64,000 bases of DNA. It comes from Gemmatimonadota bacterium (GTDB lineage Bacteria > Gemmatimonadota > Gemmatimonadetes > Gemmatimonadales > Gemmatimonadaceae). Below are positions 6,472 through 58,013 of the stretch, piece by piece. Positions within the stretch are counted from its first letter, which is position 1. Every line of letters starts with the position of its first letter. The notes beneath the pieces were generated by a model. The model did not search any database and was not told the DNA's origin. It saw only the letters and a program-made list of their open reading frames with translations. The DNA lies in assembly GCA_016871895.1 (NCBI GenBank), contig VHBO01000008.1, positions 1-64,000 of the forward strand, written 5' to 3'. The position numbers and the translations under genes were made by a program.

Positions 6472-7725
6472 TCAGTCGTCGAGGAGCATCGTGGCGGGGT
6501 CTTCTAGCAGCTCCTTGAGCCGGACGAGGAAGAGCACCGCCTGCTGCCCGTCGATGATGCGATGGTCGTAACTGAGCGCGACGTACATCATCGGGCGCAC
6601 CTCGACACGGCCGTCGACCGCGACCGGCCGGTCCTGCGTCTTGTGGAGCCCGAGGATCGCGACCTGCGGATAGTTGATGATCGGCGTCGAGATGAGCGAA
6701 CCGAAGACGCCGCCGTTCGTGATGGTGAACGAGCCGCCGGTGAGGTCGTCCATCGTCAGCTTGCCGTCGCGGGCGCGCTTGGCGACCGCCCCCATCGCCT
6801 GCTGGAAGGCGATGAGTCCCATCCGGTCGGCGTCCTTGATGTTCGGGACGACGAGGCCCGCGTCGCTTGCGACCGCGATGCCGAGGTTCACGTAGTGCTT
6901 GGTGATGACGTGGTCGCCGTCGATCTGCGCGTTGACGACCGGGAACGCCTTGAGCGCCTGGCAGGCGGCCTTCGCGAAGAAGGGCATGAAGCTGAGCTTG
7001 ACGCCGTGCGACTTCTCGACGCGCTCCTTCATCCGCTCGCGGAGCGCCGTCACAGCGCTCATGTCGATCTCGTTGAAGGTCGTCAGGTGCGCGGTGGCGT
7101 GCTGCGCCTGCAGGAGGTTGTCAGCGATGCGCTTGCGGCGCGTCGTCATCTTCTCGCGCGTCTCGCGGACTCCCTCGGGGGCGCGCGGGGCGGCCGGCCG
7201 GGCCGGCGCGCTCGGGGCCGGTGCTGCGGCAGGTGCGACGGCGGGTGCGACGGCGGGTGCAGCTGACGGTGCCGCGGTGCCAGCGGTGTGCGCGATGACG
7301 TCGGGCTTGCTCACCACGCCGCCACGACCGGTCCCCGGGATCCCGGCGAGCGAGATCCCCTGCTCGGCGGCGCGGCGCGCGGCGCTCGGTGCGGCGCGGA
7401 CCTCAGCGGCGGGCGCCGGAGCGGCGCTTGGTGCGGGGGCGGCGGGGGAAGCAGCCGGGGCGGCAACACTCGGGGCGGCCGCGGCCGTCGCCGTCTCATC
7501 GAGCTCGGCGAGCGTCTCTGCCAGCTGAACGACGTCGCCTTCCTGCTTGAGGCGCTTCACGAGGACGCCCGCATTGAGCGCGGGGACCTCGACGGTGATC
7601 TTGTCGGTCTCGAGTTCAACCAGGGTCTCGCCGATCGCGACGGGTTCGCCTTCCTGCTTGCGCCAGCGAGAGACGGTGGCTTCCGTGATGGATTCGCCGA
7701 GGGGGGGGACCTTGATGGGAATCAT
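6472..7725 (-). CDS. sucB: 2-oxoglutarate dehydrogenase E2, dihydrolipoamide succinyltransferase
   Basis: This 417-residue protein is the acyltransferase core of a 2-oxoacid dehydrogenase complex. It has one lipoyl domain (residues 1-77, lipoylated Lys42 in E-T-D-K-I-T-V-E), an Ala/Pro-rich linker, a peripheral subunit-binding domain (about 120-155), a second Ala/Pro linker, and the catalytic domain with H-R-x-x-D-G at His388-Asp392. A single lipoyl domain and the G-E-S-I-T-E-A-T motif favour the succinyltransferase over pyruvate E2. The ATG at 7725 was chosen because M-I-P-I-K opens the lipoyl domain; an upstream in-frame ATG at 7761 would overlap the divergent gene. A TATATT hexamer lies 6 bases before this ATG. 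lpdA follows. Confidence 0.92.
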
Positions 7726-7731
7726 AGGCGG

Positions 7732-7739
7732 AATATAGC
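7732..7739. promoter_or_regulatory. Overlapping divergent -10 elements (sucB and MDR dehydrogenase)
   Basis: Minus strand TATATT (7737-7732) ends 6 bases before the sucB ATG. Plus strand TATAGC (7734-7739) ends 12 bases before the ATG at 7752. The two share four bases within a 26-base intergenic gap. Confidence 0.5.
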
Positions 7740-7751
7740 CACGGAGCCGGG

Positions 7752-8795
7752 ATGCGAGCACTCACCATCGATGCGCACGGCGGACTCGACCAGCTGCGAT
7801 TCCGCGATGATCTCTCCACGCCGGCGCTCCCGGCCGCGGGTGGGGTCCGGGTGCGCCTGCGCGCCGCCGCGCTGAACCATCTCGACCTCTGGGTCGTCCG
7901 CGGCATCCCCGGTGTGGAGGTGCGGCCGGGGTGGATCCTCGGCGGGGATGGCACGGGCATCGTGGCGGAGGTGAGCCCCGACGTGACGGCCGTGGCCCCC
8001 GGGGACCGCGTGGTGATCAATCCCGGGCTCTCGTGCCGGCAGTGCGAGTTCTGCCGCGCGGGGGAGCACTCCCTCTGCGTCAGGTATCGTCTCCTCGGGG
8101 AGCATCTCCCCGGCACCTTCGCGGACGAGGTCGTGGTCCCCGCGTCGAACGTCCGGCGGATCCCCAACGGTGTGGACGATGCCGCCGCGGCCGCGTTCAC
8201 CCTCGCGACCCTCACGGCGTGGCGGATGTGCGTGACGCGGGCCCAGGTCCGCGAGGGGGACGAGGTACTCATCTGGGGGATCGGTGGGGGCGTCGCGCTC
8301 GCGGCGCTGCAGATCTGCAAGGCGCGCGGCGCGCGGGTGTGGGTGACCTCGTCGAGCGCGGAGAAGCTCGACCGGGCGCGGGCCCTCGGCGCAGATGAGT
8401 GCCTCGACCACTCGGCGGGCGACATCGGGAAGACGATCCGCGAGCGGACCGGGAAGCGTGGCGTGGACGTCGTCGTGGACTCGGTCGGGGAGCGGACGTG
8501 GGCGCAGTCGCTCGGGGCGCTCGCGCGCGGCGGGCGGCTCGTCACGTGCGGTGGCACCTCGGGGCCCGCGCTCGCGATGGATGTGCGGAAGCTCTTCTGG
8601 AACCAGTGGTCGATCCTCGGGTCGACGATGGGGAACGACGCCGAACTCGACGCGATCGTCGCAGCGTTCGTGGCCGGCCAGCTCGTGCCGCCGGTGGACG
8701 GCGTGTGGGACCTCGCGGACGGTCGGGCCGCATTCGAGCGGCTCGCGTCGGGGCGGCAGTTCGGCAAGGTCGTTCTGCGGATCGGCGATGGCTGA
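7752..8795 (+). CDS. Zinc-binding MDR dehydrogenase / quinone oxidoreductase-like
   Basis: This 347-residue member of the medium-chain dehydrogenase/reductase superfamily has an N-terminal GroES-like domain and a Rossmann domain with G-x-G-G-G-V-A near residue 177. The four structural-zinc cysteines are intact: Cys95, Cys98, Cys101 and Cys109. The catalytic-zinc cysteine of classical alcohol dehydrogenases is absent, as the segment reads N-H-L-D-L-W. The protein is therefore closer to the zinc-lobe-containing quinone oxidoreductase-like group than to a true alcohol dehydrogenase. It is divergent from sucB, and its end overlaps the next small gene. Substrate unknown. Confidence 0.88.
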
Positions 8796-52111: not shown

Positions 52112-52206
52112 AGGCTGAAGACTGAAGGCTGAAAGCTCAAAGCTGAAAGCTGAGTGCTGAAAGCAGCTTCCAGCCTTCAGCCTTCAGCCTCCAGCTTTCA
52201 GCATTC
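52109..52206. repeat. Heptamer array 3 (8 direct plus 6 inverted units) spanning a convergent gap
   Basis: Fourteen 7-base units run without a single phase slip. Eight match TGAARGC with at most two changes. The next six are the reverse complement (AGCYTTC). The array begins on the TGA stop of the sulfotransferase gene and ends at the TGA stop of the convergent BNR protein gene, so it is the whole intergenic sequence. It can fold into an arm of about 42 bp with mismatches. Confidence 0.92.
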
Positions 52207-55200
52207 ATGCAATCGGCTTCGGCGCCGGCACGTGCACCGCCGGCAGCCCGCGCTCCCGGAGTTGGCCGTTCAGCCGCTCGAGGCCCTCTCCCTCCACCTG
52301 TCGTAGCCGCTCGAGTTGGCGCTCGAACTGCCCGTTGAGCGTGTCGTAGATCTCGCCGTGCTGTCGCGTCGGGGCGTACGCCCCCGACTGCACCTGCATG
52401 TTCAGCGTGATGAGCTTGTTGTAGAGCTTCGTCGGCATATCGAGGGTGCACTGGTCGACGTGGCATCCCACCTCGTATAGCTCCTCGCGCACCGACTCGA
52501 GGCGCGCCCGCACCGCCTTGGCCGAATCGACCGCCGGTCCGCCGTCGAGGCGTCCGATCCGGTCGTCCATCTGCCGCTGCAGGTCCTCCACGCGCTTCAC
52601 GGCATCGACCACATCGTTCACGCGGTCCACGGCGCGTCGTGCGGCCTGATACTGCGCGACGAGATCGGCGGTGCTTGAGGTGACCCGCGGATCCGCGACC
52701 ACCTGGACGGTCCGGGCGAGCGTGTCGCGGCCGACGGTGAGTCGCACGGTGTAGGTGCCCGGCGGGACGACGGGGCCACGCGTCGTCCCGTAATCGATCA
52801 CCGTGTTCGGCAGCTTCCGGATCCCCGGGAGGCGGAGGTTCCAGACGAAGCGATTGCTCCCGCGGCGCGTCGGCACGATTGAATCCGCCGGCGCGAAGGC
52901 GAGCGCGTCGTCGACCTCCGCGGAGTCGGCGGAGGTGAAGCGGCGGAGCCGCTCCCCCTGCGCGTCAAAGATCTCGAGTGTGACCGGGCTGGTCGGGACC
53001 TCGCGGAGCCAGAAATCGATGAGCGCGCCCGAGGGTGGGTTCTCTCCCGTGCCATCCCCACCGCGTGCGCCCTCCCAGAGAATCGCGCGCGCCGGCTGGA
53101 AGAGGTGCGCCGCGCGGCGCGTCACACTGTCGGCGAGCTGCCGGAGCGGCGAGAGGTCGTCGAGGACCCAGAAGGCGCGGCCGTGCGTCGCGGCGATGAG
53201 ATCGTTCCCGTGGACCTTGAGGTCGCGGACGCTCACCCGCGGGAGGTTGAGCTGCAACGGCTGCCACGCGGCGCCGTCATCGAACGACACCCAGACGCCG
53301 AGCTCCGTGCCCGCGTACAGCAGCCCGCGACGCATCGGGTCCTCCCGCACCACGCGCGTATACGCCGTGCGCGGGATGCCGTTCACGATCCGGGTCCAGG
53401 TGCGGCCGTAGTCGCTGCTCTTCCAGAGATACGGGGCGAAGTCGTCCTGCTGGTAGCGATTCGCAGCCACATAGACGGTCGCCGGATCGAAGGGCGACGG
53501 GTCGATGTGCGCGGTGCGTGTGAAGGCCCCGTACGCGGGGGGCGTGACATCCTGCCACGTCGTCCCGCCATCGCGCGAGACGTGGATCCGCCCGTCGTCC
53601 GATCCAGCCCAGAGCACCTGCGGCGTCCGCGGCGACTCGGCGAAGGCGTAGATCGTCGCATACCACTCGGCGCCGGTCATCTCCCCGTGGATCGGCCCCC
53701 CGGTGCGCTCGAGCGTCATCGGGTCCGCCTTCGTCAGGTCGGGGCTGATCCGCTCCCAGCTTGCCCCCTCGGTGCGGGAGCGCCAGACGTGCTGCGAGGT
53801 CACGTAGAGGGTGCGCGGGTCGTGCCGCGAGACGAGCACGGGGAAGGTCCACTGGAACCGCTCGCGCACGTCCTTGGCCGCCCAGCCGTCCCAGTTGATC
53901 TCGGTGACGGAGATGTCGCGCTCCTGTCGGCTGCGCCGGTCGTAGCGTGAGAGCTGGCCGAGGTAGCATCCGCCATAGGTGACGTTCGGGTCGCGCGGAT
54001 CGAAGGCGATCGTCGCGTTCTCACACCCGGCGACGGAGAAGTAGTCGCGGAGGCCGATCCCGCCCTCTTCACCGCGCGAGGCGACGGAGATCGCCGAGTT
54101 GTCCTGCTGCGCGCCGTAGATGCGGTACGGGAACTGGTCGTCCGCGTTCACGTGGTAGAACTGTGCCGTCGGCTGCGTGTGCTGGCTCGACCAGGTGACG
54201 CCGCGGTCGAAGGAGATCGTCGCGCCGCCGTCGTTCCCGAGGATCATCCGCGACGGGTCCGCCGGGTCGATCCAGAGGAGATGCTGGTCGCCGTGGGGCG
54301 CATCGAGTTCGGTGAAGGTCTTCCCGCCATCGATCGACTTTAGGACGCTCAGGTTCATCACGTAGACGGTGTTCTCGTCCGCGGGATCGGCGGTGACGGC
54401 GGAGTAGTACCAGCTCCGCACCCACATCCGCGGGTCGTCATTCATCCGCGTCCAGGTGGTACCGGCGTCATCGGAGCGGAAGAAGCCGCCCGAGGAGTCG
54501 GGCGCCTCGATGTTCGCGTAGAGGCGATTCGGGTTCGCGCGCGACACGTCGAGGCCGATCTTGCCGAGCGGGCGCTTCGGGATGCCCGGCATCCGGGTGA
54601 GCTCGGTCCAGGTGTCGCCGCCGTCGGTGGTCTTCCAGATCCCGCTGCGGCCGCCGCCAGCGAGCATCGACCATGGGGTCCGCTGGAACTTGTAGGTGGA
54701 GGCGTAAAGGACGCGCGGGTTCGACGGGTCGATGGTGAGGTCGTTCACCCCGGTGGAGTCATCGATGAAGAGCACCTTCTTCCAGCTCTTCCCGCCGTCG
54801 AGCGTGCGGAAGATGCCGCGCTCGGGATTCGGCCCGAAGGCGTGACCGATAGCAGAGACGTAGACGCGGTCCGCATCGCGTGGATCGACGATGATGTCGG
54901 TGATCTGGTGCGTCTCGGCGAGCCCGAGCGACGCCCAGGTCGCCCCGGCGTCGGTGGAGCGGTACATCCCGGTGCCGAAGGTGAGGTCTTCGCGGAGCTG
55001 CGACTCGCCACTGCCGACGTAGAGGACGTTCGGGTCGCTCGGGGCCACGGTGATCGCGCCGACCGACGACAGATCGGACTTCCCGTCGGTGAGGTTCTCC
55101 CACGTGATGCCGCCGTTCTGGGTGCGCCAGACGCCGCCGTTCACCGCGCCCATGTAGAAGAGGAAGGGCTTCCGCAGGTCGCCGACCACCGCATCGACGC

Positions 55201-55414
55201 GGCCGCCGCGATACGGGCCGACGCTCCGCCACCGGAGGGCCTTCAGCGCGCGGTCGGTCGCCGTCGGGGAGGTGTAGATCGTGGGGTCGTACGCCGGCAG
55301 GGCGGGCGCGGCGGCGGGGGTTGGCCGGGTGCGCTGCGCACCGGCGAGGGCGGGCAGGAGGACGGCGATGAGGGCGGGGGCGACGCGGCGCGTCAGCGAG
55401 CGGAGGTTCGGCAT
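52205..55414 (-). CDS. Secreted BNR/VPS10-like multi-propeller protein
   Basis: This 1069-residue protein starts with a signal peptide (about 1-26, ending A-L-A-G-A-Q). It then has W-R-S-V-G-P-Y-R-G-G-R, the typical start of this large secreted family in Gemmatimonadota and Bacteroidota, often annotated as glycosyl hydrolase or sialidase-like. The first 700 residues hold repeated Asp-box motifs S-x-D-x-G-x-T-W (for example at about 135, 205, 260 and 380). The C-terminal 350 residues hold a beta domain and a helical region. No glycosidase catalytic set is recognised, so enzymatic activity is unproven. Its ATG is 17 bases from a divergent gene. Confidence 0.88.
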   Translation of the reverse strand: MPNLRSLTRRVAPALIAVLLPALAGAQRTRPTPAAAPALPAYDPTIYTSPTATDRALKALRWRSVGPYRGGRVDAVVGDLRKPFLFYMGAVNGGVWRTQNGGITWENLTDGKSDLSSVGAITVAPSDPNVLYVGSGESQLREDLTFGTGMYRSTDAGATWASLGLAETHQITDIIVDPRDADRVYVSAIGHAFGPNPERGIFRTLDGGKSWKKVLFIDDSTGVNDLTIDPSNPRVLYASTYKFQRTPWSMLAGGGRSGIWKTTDGGDTWTELTRMPGIPKRPLGKIGLDVSRANPNRLYANIEAPDSSGGFFRSDDAGTTWTRMNDDPRMWVRSWYYSAVTADPADENTVYVMNLSVLKSIDGGKTFTELDAPHGDQHLLWIDPADPSRMILGNDGGATISFDRGVTWSSQHTQPTAQFYHVNADDQFPYRIYGAQQDNSAISVASRGEEGGIGLRDYFSVAGCENATIAFDPRDPNVTYGGCYLGQLSRYDRRSRQERDISVTEINWDGWAAKDVRERFQWTFPVLVSRHDPRTLYVTSQHVWRSRTEGASWERISPDLTKADPMTLERTGGPIHGEMTGAEWYATIYAFAESPRTPQVLWAGSDDGRIHVSRDGGTTWQDVTPPAYGAFTRTAHIDPSPFDPATVYVAANRYQQDDFAPYLWKSSDYGRTWTRIVNGIPRTAYTRVVREDPMRRGLLYAGTELGVWVSFDDGAAWQPLQLNLPRVSVRDLKVHGNDLIAATHGRAFWVLDDLSPLRQLADSVTRRAAHLFQPARAILWEGARGGDGTGENPPSGALIDFWLREVPTSPVTLEIFDAQGERLRRFTSADSAEVDDALAFAPADSIVPTRRGSNRFVWNLRLPGIRKLPNTVIDYGTTRGPVVPPGTYTVRLTVGRDTLARTVQVVADPRVTSSTADLVAQYQAARRAVDRVNDVVDAVKRVEDLQRQMDDRIGRLDGGPAVDSAKAVRARLESVREELYEVGCHVDQCTLDMPTKLYNKLITLNMQVQSGAYAPTRQHGEIYDTLNGQFERQLERLRQVEGEGLERLNGQLRERGLPAVHVPAPKPIA

Positions 55415-55419
55415 ACCGA

Positions 55420-55426
55420 TAACTTA
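55420..55426. promoter_or_regulatory. Shared symmetric -10 element TAACTTA, two divergent leaderless starts
   Basis: Plus strand TAACTT (55420-55425) ends 6 bases before the GTG at 55432. Minus strand TAAGTT (55426-55421) ends 6 bases before the ATG at 55414. The whole intergenic gap is 17 bases, so the two -10 elements overlap by five bases and both -35 regions must lie in the opposite gene. Confidence 0.65.
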
Positions 55427-55431
55427 CGAGC

Positions 55432-56163
55432 GTGAACACGCTCTCGGGGACCGTCGGGTTGGCACGTGCGCTCTCGAAGCTCGGTCGCTGTTCGCGCGCC
55501 GAGGGGGAGCGGTTGATCCGTGCAGGGCGCGTCCGGGTCGGGGGGCAGGTGGTGACCGACCCGCTCCGCCGCGTCCATCCCGAGACCGCTGCGATCTCCG
55601 TCGATGGCGTCACGGTCGACCGGGCCGCCAGCGTGTATCTCGTGCTGAACAAACCGCGAGGTCTCGTCACCACGCGGGACGATCCGCAGGCCCGCGTGAC
55701 GGTCTACGATTGTGTCGACGACCCGACGCTGCCGTTCGTGGCCCCGGTGGGGCGCCTCGACAAGGCGAGCGAAGGGCTTCTCCTCCTCACCAACGACACC
55801 CGCTGGGCGGCACGGCTCACCGACCCGGCCGCACACGTCGATAAGACGTATCACGTGCAGGTCGCGGGGCTCCCGGACGACGCGGTGCTCGCGCGCCTGC
55901 GCGCCGGGGTCGATGAGCTCGCGACGGGGGAGCGGCTCACCGCTAAGCGGATCGACCTCCTCCGGACCGGGTCACGCAGCAGCCACTGGCTCGAGCTCGT
56001 GCTCGATGAGGGGCGGAACCGGCAGATCCGGCGGTTGTTGGCGGTCGAAGGGCTCGAGGTGAAGCGGTTGATTCGCGTCGCCGTCGGCGCGTTGGCGCTC
56101 GGCGACCTCCCCAAGGGGGCGTGGCGACACCTGACGCCGAGTGAGGTCCGCGCCCTCGGGTGA
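55432..56163 (+). CDS. 23S/16S rRNA pseudouridine synthase (RsuA/RluB family)
   Basis: This 243-residue enzyme has an S4 RNA-binding domain (about 8-65, S-R-A-E-G-E-R-L-I-R-A-G-R-V-x-V-G-G) and a catalytic domain with G-R-L-D-K-A-S-E-G-L-L-L-L-T-N-D near 102-117, whose Asp is catalytic. The K-x-Y-x-V and L-x-E-G-R-N-R-Q-I-R-R motifs are present. It converts a uridine in rRNA to pseudouridine; the target site is not certain (RluB, RluE, RluF and RsuA are similar). The GTG start was chosen from the TAACTT hexamer and the S4 domain start. Confidence 0.93.
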   Translation: MNTLSGTVGLARALSKLGRCSRAEGERLIRAGRVRVGGQVVTDPLRRVHPETAAISVDGVTVDRAASVYLVLNKPRGLVTTRDDPQARVTVYDCVDDPTLPFVAPVGRLDKASEGLLLLTNDTRWAARLTDPAAHVDKTYHVQVAGLPDDAVLARLRAGVDELATGERLTAKRIDLLRTGSRSSHWLELVLDEGRNRQIRRLLAVEGLEVKRLIRVAVGALALGDLPKGAWRHLTPSEVRALG

Positions 56164-56210
56164 GGCGCTGACCGAGTTCGCGTCGGAGGTCGTGGCGCGG
56201 GGGGCGTCGG

Positions 56211-58013
56211 TCAGGGGACCGGACGAGGACGCGCCGGCTTCGTCCCGTTGAGCCGCGGCCGCGGCCCGTTCCCCACATCCACCGTCAGGTCCTTCAGCAT
56301 CGACGTGATCCGCGCATAGTGCGGATAGTCGATGAACTCCGGCTCGTCACTGCGCTGATGGTAGTCGCCGTGCAGCCCGGTGAAGAAGAAGGCGATCGGC
56401 ACGCCCTGGCGCGCGTAATTGAAGTGGTCGCTGCGCCCGTAGAGGTTGTTGTACCCGGCCCAGCTGATCGGATCGTCGAACTTGTAGTCGAGCGCGAGCG
56501 GGCGCGCCTGCTTCGCATTCGTCGTCCGCACCTGCTCCCCGAGGTCGCGGGAGTCGAAGAAGGAGCCGATCACCCCGACGAAGTCGTCGCCGCCGCCCGG
56601 CAGGTCTTCGGCGCGCCCGCGCCCGATCATATCGATGTTGATCTGCGCGACGACGGAGTCGAGCGGAACGGTCGGGTTGCGCGTGAAGAACGCCGAGCCG
56701 ACGAGCCCGCCCTCCTCGCCAGTATGCCAGATGAAGAGGGTCGAGCGCTTCGGCTTCACCGGCATCGCGGCGATCGCCTCCGCGATCTCGAGGACCGCCA
56801 TCGACCCAGAGCCGTCATCGTCGGCGCCGTTGTTGATCGAGTCGAGCCGCGGGGTGGGGACGCGACGCCGGATGCTGTCCATATTCACGCGGAACTGCGC
56901 GAGCACCTCGATCGTGGGCTGCTTCATCCCGTTCTCGAGCATCCACCGCATCCGCAGGTCGTTGAAGGCCTTGAGCGAGTCCTTGTCGACGGGCGTGGTG
57001 AAGCCGACGTGGTCGTTATGTGCGCCGATGGCGACGTACTGCGTCGCGAGGGCGGGGTCGCTGCCGGGGATGATCCCCACGACGTTGCGGCCATAGGCGG
57101 AGGGGAGCTCGACGAAGTCGAGCGAGGCGTTCACCGTGCCCCCCGTGGTGCCGGGCGCCACCCCTTCGAAACTCGTCCGTGAGAAGAGCGCGGCAGCCGC
57201 AGCGCGGGTGACCCGGAGCTGCGCCTGCGGCTGGAGCTGGCTGAGTTGCTGCTTGAGCAGGGCGAGGGAATCAACCGACGCACCGGCCGCCACCGGCGCG
57301 GTGCGCGGCGCCGGGGTGATCGTCGCGACGGTCGGCTCGTTGAGTGCGACGCGCTGCGCGGGCGAGAGGTCGTCGAGGTCGATGACGGCGAGCGCGGCCG
57401 CGGCGTCGAAGCGGCTCGGCGCGGCCGGACCTGCGCGCCCACCGAAGGCGAGGCCGGCGGCGCCGGTCCGGCGCCCCGGCGCGGGGAGGAGCACCACGAA
57501 CTTCCCGGCCGCGGCGGCGGCGGGGATCTGCGTAGTGGTGTCCCCCTGCGTGCCGCCGAAGATGACGGTGGCGTCGGCGATCGGCCGCGGTGCGCGCGCG
57601 CCCGGGACCGCGACGACCTCCGTGTTCCACGCCAACGGCGTGCCGTTCACGGTGACGCGCGAACTCGGCGTGAAGCGGCGCAGATGGTACGGCAGCACCT
57701 GGAAGTAGGTGCCGTCATCCCCCGCGGGGATGACACCGAAGCGCCGGAGCTCCGCGGCGATATAGTCGGTCCCCTTCTTGTTGCCGACGCGGCCGACCTG
57801 CCGCCCCTGCATCGAGTCGTCGGCGAACTGATAGAGCCGGATCTGCAGGTCGCGGACCGAGATCCCCGACGCGGTCGGCGCCGGACGCACCCGCGCCGGG
57901 TTGCCGTATCGGTTCGTCCCCTGCGCGGAGATGAGCCCAGGCTGCACGGCGAGGAGGACGAGGCCGATGGCGGCGAGGACGGCGCGACGGGCGTGGCGGG
58001 CGGAACGGGACAT
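56211..58013 (-). CDS. Exported M28-family metallopeptidase
   Basis: This 600-residue zinc aminopeptidase-like protein has a signal peptide (about 1-31). The two-zinc site is visible in order: H in G-A-H-N-D-H, Asp in N-N-G-A-D-D-D-G-S-G, Glu-Glu in H-T-G-E-E-G-G, Asp in N-I-D-M-I-G-R, and His in G-R-S-D-H-F-N-Y. A PA-like insert with Ala-rich sequence lies at about 150-320. GGAG lies 6 bases before the ATG, a good ribosome binding site. It likely trims peptides outside the cytoplasm. A weak promoter candidate (TTGAAC at 58075-58070, TACATC at 58050-58045, 19-base spacing) precedes it. Confidence 0.92.
   Translation of the reverse strand: MSRSARHARRAVLAAIGLVLLAVQPGLISAQGTNRYGNPARVRPAPTASGISVRDLQIRLYQFADDSMQGRQVGRVGNKKGTDYIAAELRRFGVIPAGDDGTYFQVLPYHLRRFTPSSRVTVNGTPLAWNTEVVAVPGARAPRPIADATVIFGGTQGDTTTQIPAAAAAGKFVVLLPAPGRRTGAAGLAFGGRAGPAAPSRFDAAAALAVIDLDDLSPAQRVALNEPTVATITPAPRTAPVAAGASVDSLALLKQQLSQLQPQAQLRVTRAAAAALFSRTSFEGVAPGTTGGTVNASLDFVELPSAYGRNVVGIIPGSDPALATQYVAIGAHNDHVGFTTPVDKDSLKAFNDLRMRWMLENGMKQPTIEVLAQFRVNMDSIRRRVPTPRLDSINNGADDDGSGSMAVLEIAEAIAAMPVKPKRSTLFIWHTGEEGGLVGSAFFTRNPTVPLDSVVAQINIDMIGRGRAEDLPGGGDDFVGVIGSFFDSRDLGEQVRTTNAKQARPLALDYKFDDPISWAGYNNLYGRSDHFNYARQGVPIAFFFTGLHGDYHQRSDEPEFIDYPHYARITSMLKDLTVDVGNGPRPRLNGTKPARPRPVP

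Follow-up and report, generated by a model that had tools for sequence, protein, structure and literature searches.

The window, which is the whole 64,000-nucleotide stretch of DNA analysed here and comes from a Gemmatimonadota bacterium, contains two divergently oriented genes that are separated by only 17 bp (55415-55431). On the minus strand, the ORF at 52205..55414 starts with ATG 55414 and codes for a VPS10/sortilin-like secreted BNR-repeat protein of 1069 amino acids (Pfam Sortilin-Vps10, E 2e-32, and BNR). Its N-terminus resembles a signal peptide, and the ATG matches the ATG starts of several of its orthologues, which were detected in 8 further genomes of this genus (75-95% identity). 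VPS10/sortilin-like BNR proteins are an expanded family in this genome (G000), where about 13 matches were obtained in 2.3 Mb, on contigs C1, C2, C5, C8, C17, C39, C42 and C47. On the plus strand, the region 55432..56163 codes for an RsuA/RluB-type rRNA pseudouridine synthase of 243 amino acids (TIGR00093, PseudoU_synth_2 and S4 domains), referred to here as rluB. Its start at GTG 55432 is supported by the N-termini of relatives (MREASAGQVGLARA, MPRGTVSIARA and similar). Homologues start a few residues ahead of the conserved LARALSKLG motif, which is consistent with the same start codon (MNTLSGTVGLARALSKLG). An rluB-type gene in a genome of another family (L006, G096:C4:56892-57605) is 69% identical and thus closer than most copies from the same family; horizontal transfer of this gene is possible.

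Direct reading of the sequence gives CAT at 55412-55414, then ACCGATAACTTACGAGC at 55415-55431, a gap to which no strand is assigned, and then GTG at 55432-55434. The distance between the two start codons (55414 and 55432) is 18 bp. The initial annotation had described the motif TAACTTA in this gap as one symmetric -10 element shared by both genes, and the sequence is exactly as described, with TANNNT on each strand. The claim that each hexamer ends 6 bases short of its own start codon was also borne out. On the plus strand, TAACTT (55420-55425) is followed by the six bases ACGAGC and GTG 55432, and on the minus strand TAAGTT (55421-55426, read from 55426 to 55421) is followed by ATCGGT and ATG 55414. 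The putative -10 elements of rluB and VPS10 both span -12 to -7 if +1 is set at 55432 and 55414, respectively. Positions 55421 and 55425 then correspond to -11 and -7 on one strand and to -7 and -11 on the other, with -7T and -11A reciprocally paired. A T is present at -18 for rluB (T55414). The VPS10 side has a C at this position (opposite G55432) because the start codon of rluB is GTG, and this C would predict a bias towards rluB. No Shine-Dalgarno-like run was found in the 17-bp gap when AGGAG and GGAGG cores were looked for in either orientation.

The distance between TANNNT and the start codon was analysed in 844 kb of the same genome. The 667 gene starts of this sample were called with a home-made simple gene caller based on codon usage, and some of them will be wrong. 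TANNNT ends exactly 6 bases before the start in 38 of the 667 genes and 7 bases before it in 14, and at most other distances in 0-5 genes, typically about one. The hexamers found at 6 bases, which span -12 to -7 when the first base of the start codon is taken as +1, display the profile TA-N-N-T-T, and no -35 sequence is visible in the profile of these starts. A peak of the same kind was obtained in one genome of the same genus and in one from another genus of the family. This sharp peak at 6 bases is the signature of leaderless genes. Both hexamers of the 17-bp gap match the leaderless -10 of the genome (TANNTT at a distance of 6). Since this distance is that of the TANNNT peak, VPS10 and rluB both carry what is predicted to be the optimal leaderless promoter of the genome. 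Elsewhere in the window (6472-8795), a 26-bp divergent gap displays TATATT 6 bases before the minus-strand ATG and an SD-like GGAG before the plus-strand ATG, possibly a shared promoter of mixed leaderless and leadered type.

The probability of a centred TANNNTA arising by chance is 0.003 when the 17-mer is shuffled, and about 6e-4 at the mean intergenic composition. In addition, the divergent gaps of 12 bp or more in the 844-kb sample, 79 in all, were compared with expectations derived from shuffles. Symmetric TANNNTA lies 6 or 7 bases from both starts in three of them (0.02 expected), and TANNNT lies 5-8 bases from both starts in seven (0.09 expected). Among the ten gaps of 12-30 bp, TANNNT precedes both starts in five, against 0.05 expected. 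It is very unlikely that the symmetry of TAACTTA at 55415-55431 is due to chance, and the promoter is one of several of its kind in the lineage, a recurrence that the initial annotation had missed. The second symmetric gap (G000 C11:8949-8967, 19 bp, CGCTCATAAGTTACACCCC, with TAAGTTA; loci L132 and L040) separates an outer-membrane-like (omp) gene from murQ, and the third one, also of 19 bp (CGGCCGTAGTTTAACCCTC), a PAP2-like phosphatase gene from a GNAT-like gene. These four gene names were given by sequence reading, and a Pfam scan supports SIS domains in the MurQ protein. Two further divergent gaps of G000, C2:64645-64667 (23 bp; AATCTACATT, with TA overlap) and C2:58295-58322 (28 bp), contain two opposed TANNNT hexamers that overlap by TA or abut, with both hexamers near the leaderless distance.

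It may be argued that only one of the two hexamers is in use, either TAAGTT as a leaderless -10 for VPS10 or TAACTT for rluB, the symmetry being incidental and the other gene being read from elsewhere. Most leaderless -10s in G000 are indeed without symmetry. The symmetric form, however, is concentrated in short divergent gaps, where the hexamer is followed by A in 7 of 14 cases vs 5 of 47 elsewhere (Fisher P = 0.003, an optimistic value because the hexamer cases come in pairs and are not fully independent). Moreover, in VPS10 orthologues located away from rluB the sequences 6-9 bases before the ATG are CANNTT-like and asymmetric, and the symmetric form is absent. The gene order in relatives bears on the same question. 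In three of them (G003, G012 and G013), an arylsulfotransferase gene immediately precedes rluB, which apparently has no -10 of its own and can thus be an operon member. VPS10 is missing between the two genes, and a simple reading of this arrangement is that VPS10 may have been lost in this group. In the window, the arylsulfotransferase gene is on the other side of VPS10 and faces it, and in other members of the genus the gene opposite VPS10 is the arylsulfotransferase or a different member of the cluster, with rluB not nearby. The gene upstream of rluB is here VPS10 on the opposite strand, and since a co-directional neighbour is absent, rluB needs a promoter in this genome. Use of the element in one direction only is for these reasons regarded as unlikely.

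Among the relatives searched, only G008 keeps VPS10 beside rluB. The initial annotation had suggested conservation of the core in relatives with the gene pair as a check, and this sole relative does retain TAACTTA and both 6-base spacings in a gap of equal length (CCCGATAACTTATGGGC). Fourteen of the 17 bases are identical, and the three changed ones are flanking. Between G008 and the window, identity at fourfold-degenerate sites is 64% for one gene and 79% for the other, from which the neutral chance of the 7-bp core staying intact is about 0.76^7 = 14%. Taken alone, conservation of the core is therefore weak evidence, because just two genomes carry the VPS10-rluB pair. In G008, the core contains an in-frame ATG located 6 bases ahead of the GTG, which counts against the proposed arrangement.

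The murQ locus is a stronger case of conservation than the VPS10-rluB gap. Of 30 genomes of the family, which belong to many genera, 28 retain TAANTTA upstream of murQ, vs 0.46 expected. The centre of the motif is A, C or G, mostly C or G, and the flanks differ between genomes. In members of the same genus with a recognisable omp gene, the motif mostly lies about 7 bases from the CAY start on the omp side, and on the other side between 5 and more than 100 bases separate it from murQ. At this locus, one of the two sides has a leader of some 40-110 nt in many relatives, so that a leaderless start on both sides is not general. At the PAP2/GNAT locus, TAGTTTA or TAATTTA is kept in 15 of 17 genomes of the same genus. 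The conservation of both loci indicates that symmetric cores are retained even where one of the genes is not leaderless. With regard to pattern searches, the narrower TAANTTA pattern is enriched within the genus (13 sites vs 2 control sites, orthologues included), and outside the genus a family-wide search gave no excess over the reversed-pattern control. Ten TAANTTA sites were viewed together with gene calls, and only some of them lie between divergent starts on both sides. A loose pattern, CAYN5TANNNTAN5RTG, was also searched in the whole family; it was not above the reversed-pattern control and was dropped as too unspecific.

The variable leaders at murQ raise the question of whether the -10 at 55415-55431 is shared while one or both transcripts start elsewhere, for instance slightly displaced, or from a promoter within the opposite gene that would add a leader. 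The symmetric core 40-110 nt upstream of murQ in many relatives would fit such a situation. A perfect 7-bp inverted repeat, GAGCGTG-AA-CACGCTC (55428-55443), spans the GTG of rluB and may be an operator or a hairpin. Its counterpart in G008 is GGGCGT-GAAG-ACGCCC, where the innermost pair is lost and both arms carry a change that seems to be compensatory. The repeat at 55428-55443 counts against the preferred reading in that a leaderless rluB transcript does not explain it: an RNA hairpin would require a transcript that starts upstream of 55428. On the other hand, the distance of 6 bases is the optimum of the genome itself, and a sigma-70 consensus scan of 55000-56300, which does not cover -10-only promoters, found no promoter. 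Displaced transcription starts are accordingly considered improbable. A still more remote idea is that TAACTTA is not a -10 at all, and serves as the palindromic operator of a dimeric regulator. A palindrome around a free centre, conserved over many genera at murQ, would fit an operator, but TAACTTA stands exactly in the -10 register of both start codons and matches the leaderless -10 found genome-wide, and the symmetric cores differ by locus (TAASTTA, TAGTTTA and TAATTTA).

Considering the signature at 6 bases, the 18-bp geometry, the conservation in G008 and the recurrence, the reading put forward in the initial annotation, in which two leaderless starts share one symmetric -10, is the best supported. 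As read from the sequence, the 17 bp quite probably represent a complete bidirectional promoter, in which the symmetric -10 type is fused with leaderless initiation on both sides. RNA polymerase would recognise the near-palindromic core TAACTTA in either orientation and, in each case, melt the same few base pairs. RNA would begin about 7 bases downstream on either side, with the G of GTG 55432 for rluB and the A of ATG 55414 for VPS10, giving two leaderless mRNAs for which a Shine-Dalgarno sequence would be unnecessary. The promoter is thereby predicted to be active both ways, including in the rluB direction. Both polymerases would occupy the same DNA, so that each binding event should serve one gene only and the two directions would compete.

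Work by Warman and Grainger has reportedly described bacterial bidirectional promoters with symmetric -10 elements, the primary paper dating from 2021. The divergent starts of such promoters are most often 18 bp apart, since this spacing lets -7T on each strand pair with -11A on the other. Where a -18T assists one strand, it is complementary to the A with which the opposite strand initiates; T at -18 is frequent and not obligatory (PMC10268837, PMC12825309). The gap described here is similar in its near-symmetric -10, its predicted starts 18 bp apart, its reciprocal -7T/-11A and a -18T on the rluB strand, to which the A of the VPS10 start codon is complementary. It differs from the promoters of these two papers, in which the term leaderless is absent, in that both coding mRNAs would be leaderless and the promoter fills the gap. 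Unlike the full symmetric pattern, -18T is present here on one side only, with C on the VPS10 side. In Mycobacterium, leaderless genes are said to have a TANNNT -10 adjoining the ORF, and VPS10 and rluB resemble them in that TANNNT precedes the start at a fixed, short distance, an SD is absent and the mRNAs are predicted to lack a leader. The same likeness holds for leaderless genes of Deinococcus-Thermus, in which the TANNNT -10 also adjoins the ORF; divergent, bidirectional or symmetric use is not mentioned in that study (PMC12340547). No matching case of a leaderless bidirectional promoter was found in the open-access literature.

The two-sided leaderless symmetric promoter is best read as a variant of the known bidirectional type that is recurrent in the lineage and not a one-off. 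Leaderless initiation removes the 5' UTR and the symmetric -10 removes the second promoter. In combination, 17 bp is the smallest spacing of divergent genes possible under the common 18-bp geometry. Since every base has an assigned role, the gap is a clean natural system for testing how polymerases compete at bidirectional promoters. The murQ locus adds a set of conserved cases from different genera, with constant symmetry and variable leader length. More tentatively, and with the balance somewhat against it, minimal divergent gene pairs may form an established class in this genus. A single symmetric -10 of about 7 bp would then make up all of the regulatory DNA between two genes with leaderless mRNAs; it would have been maintained over long evolutionary times, as at murQ, and would act as a mutually exclusive switch between the two.
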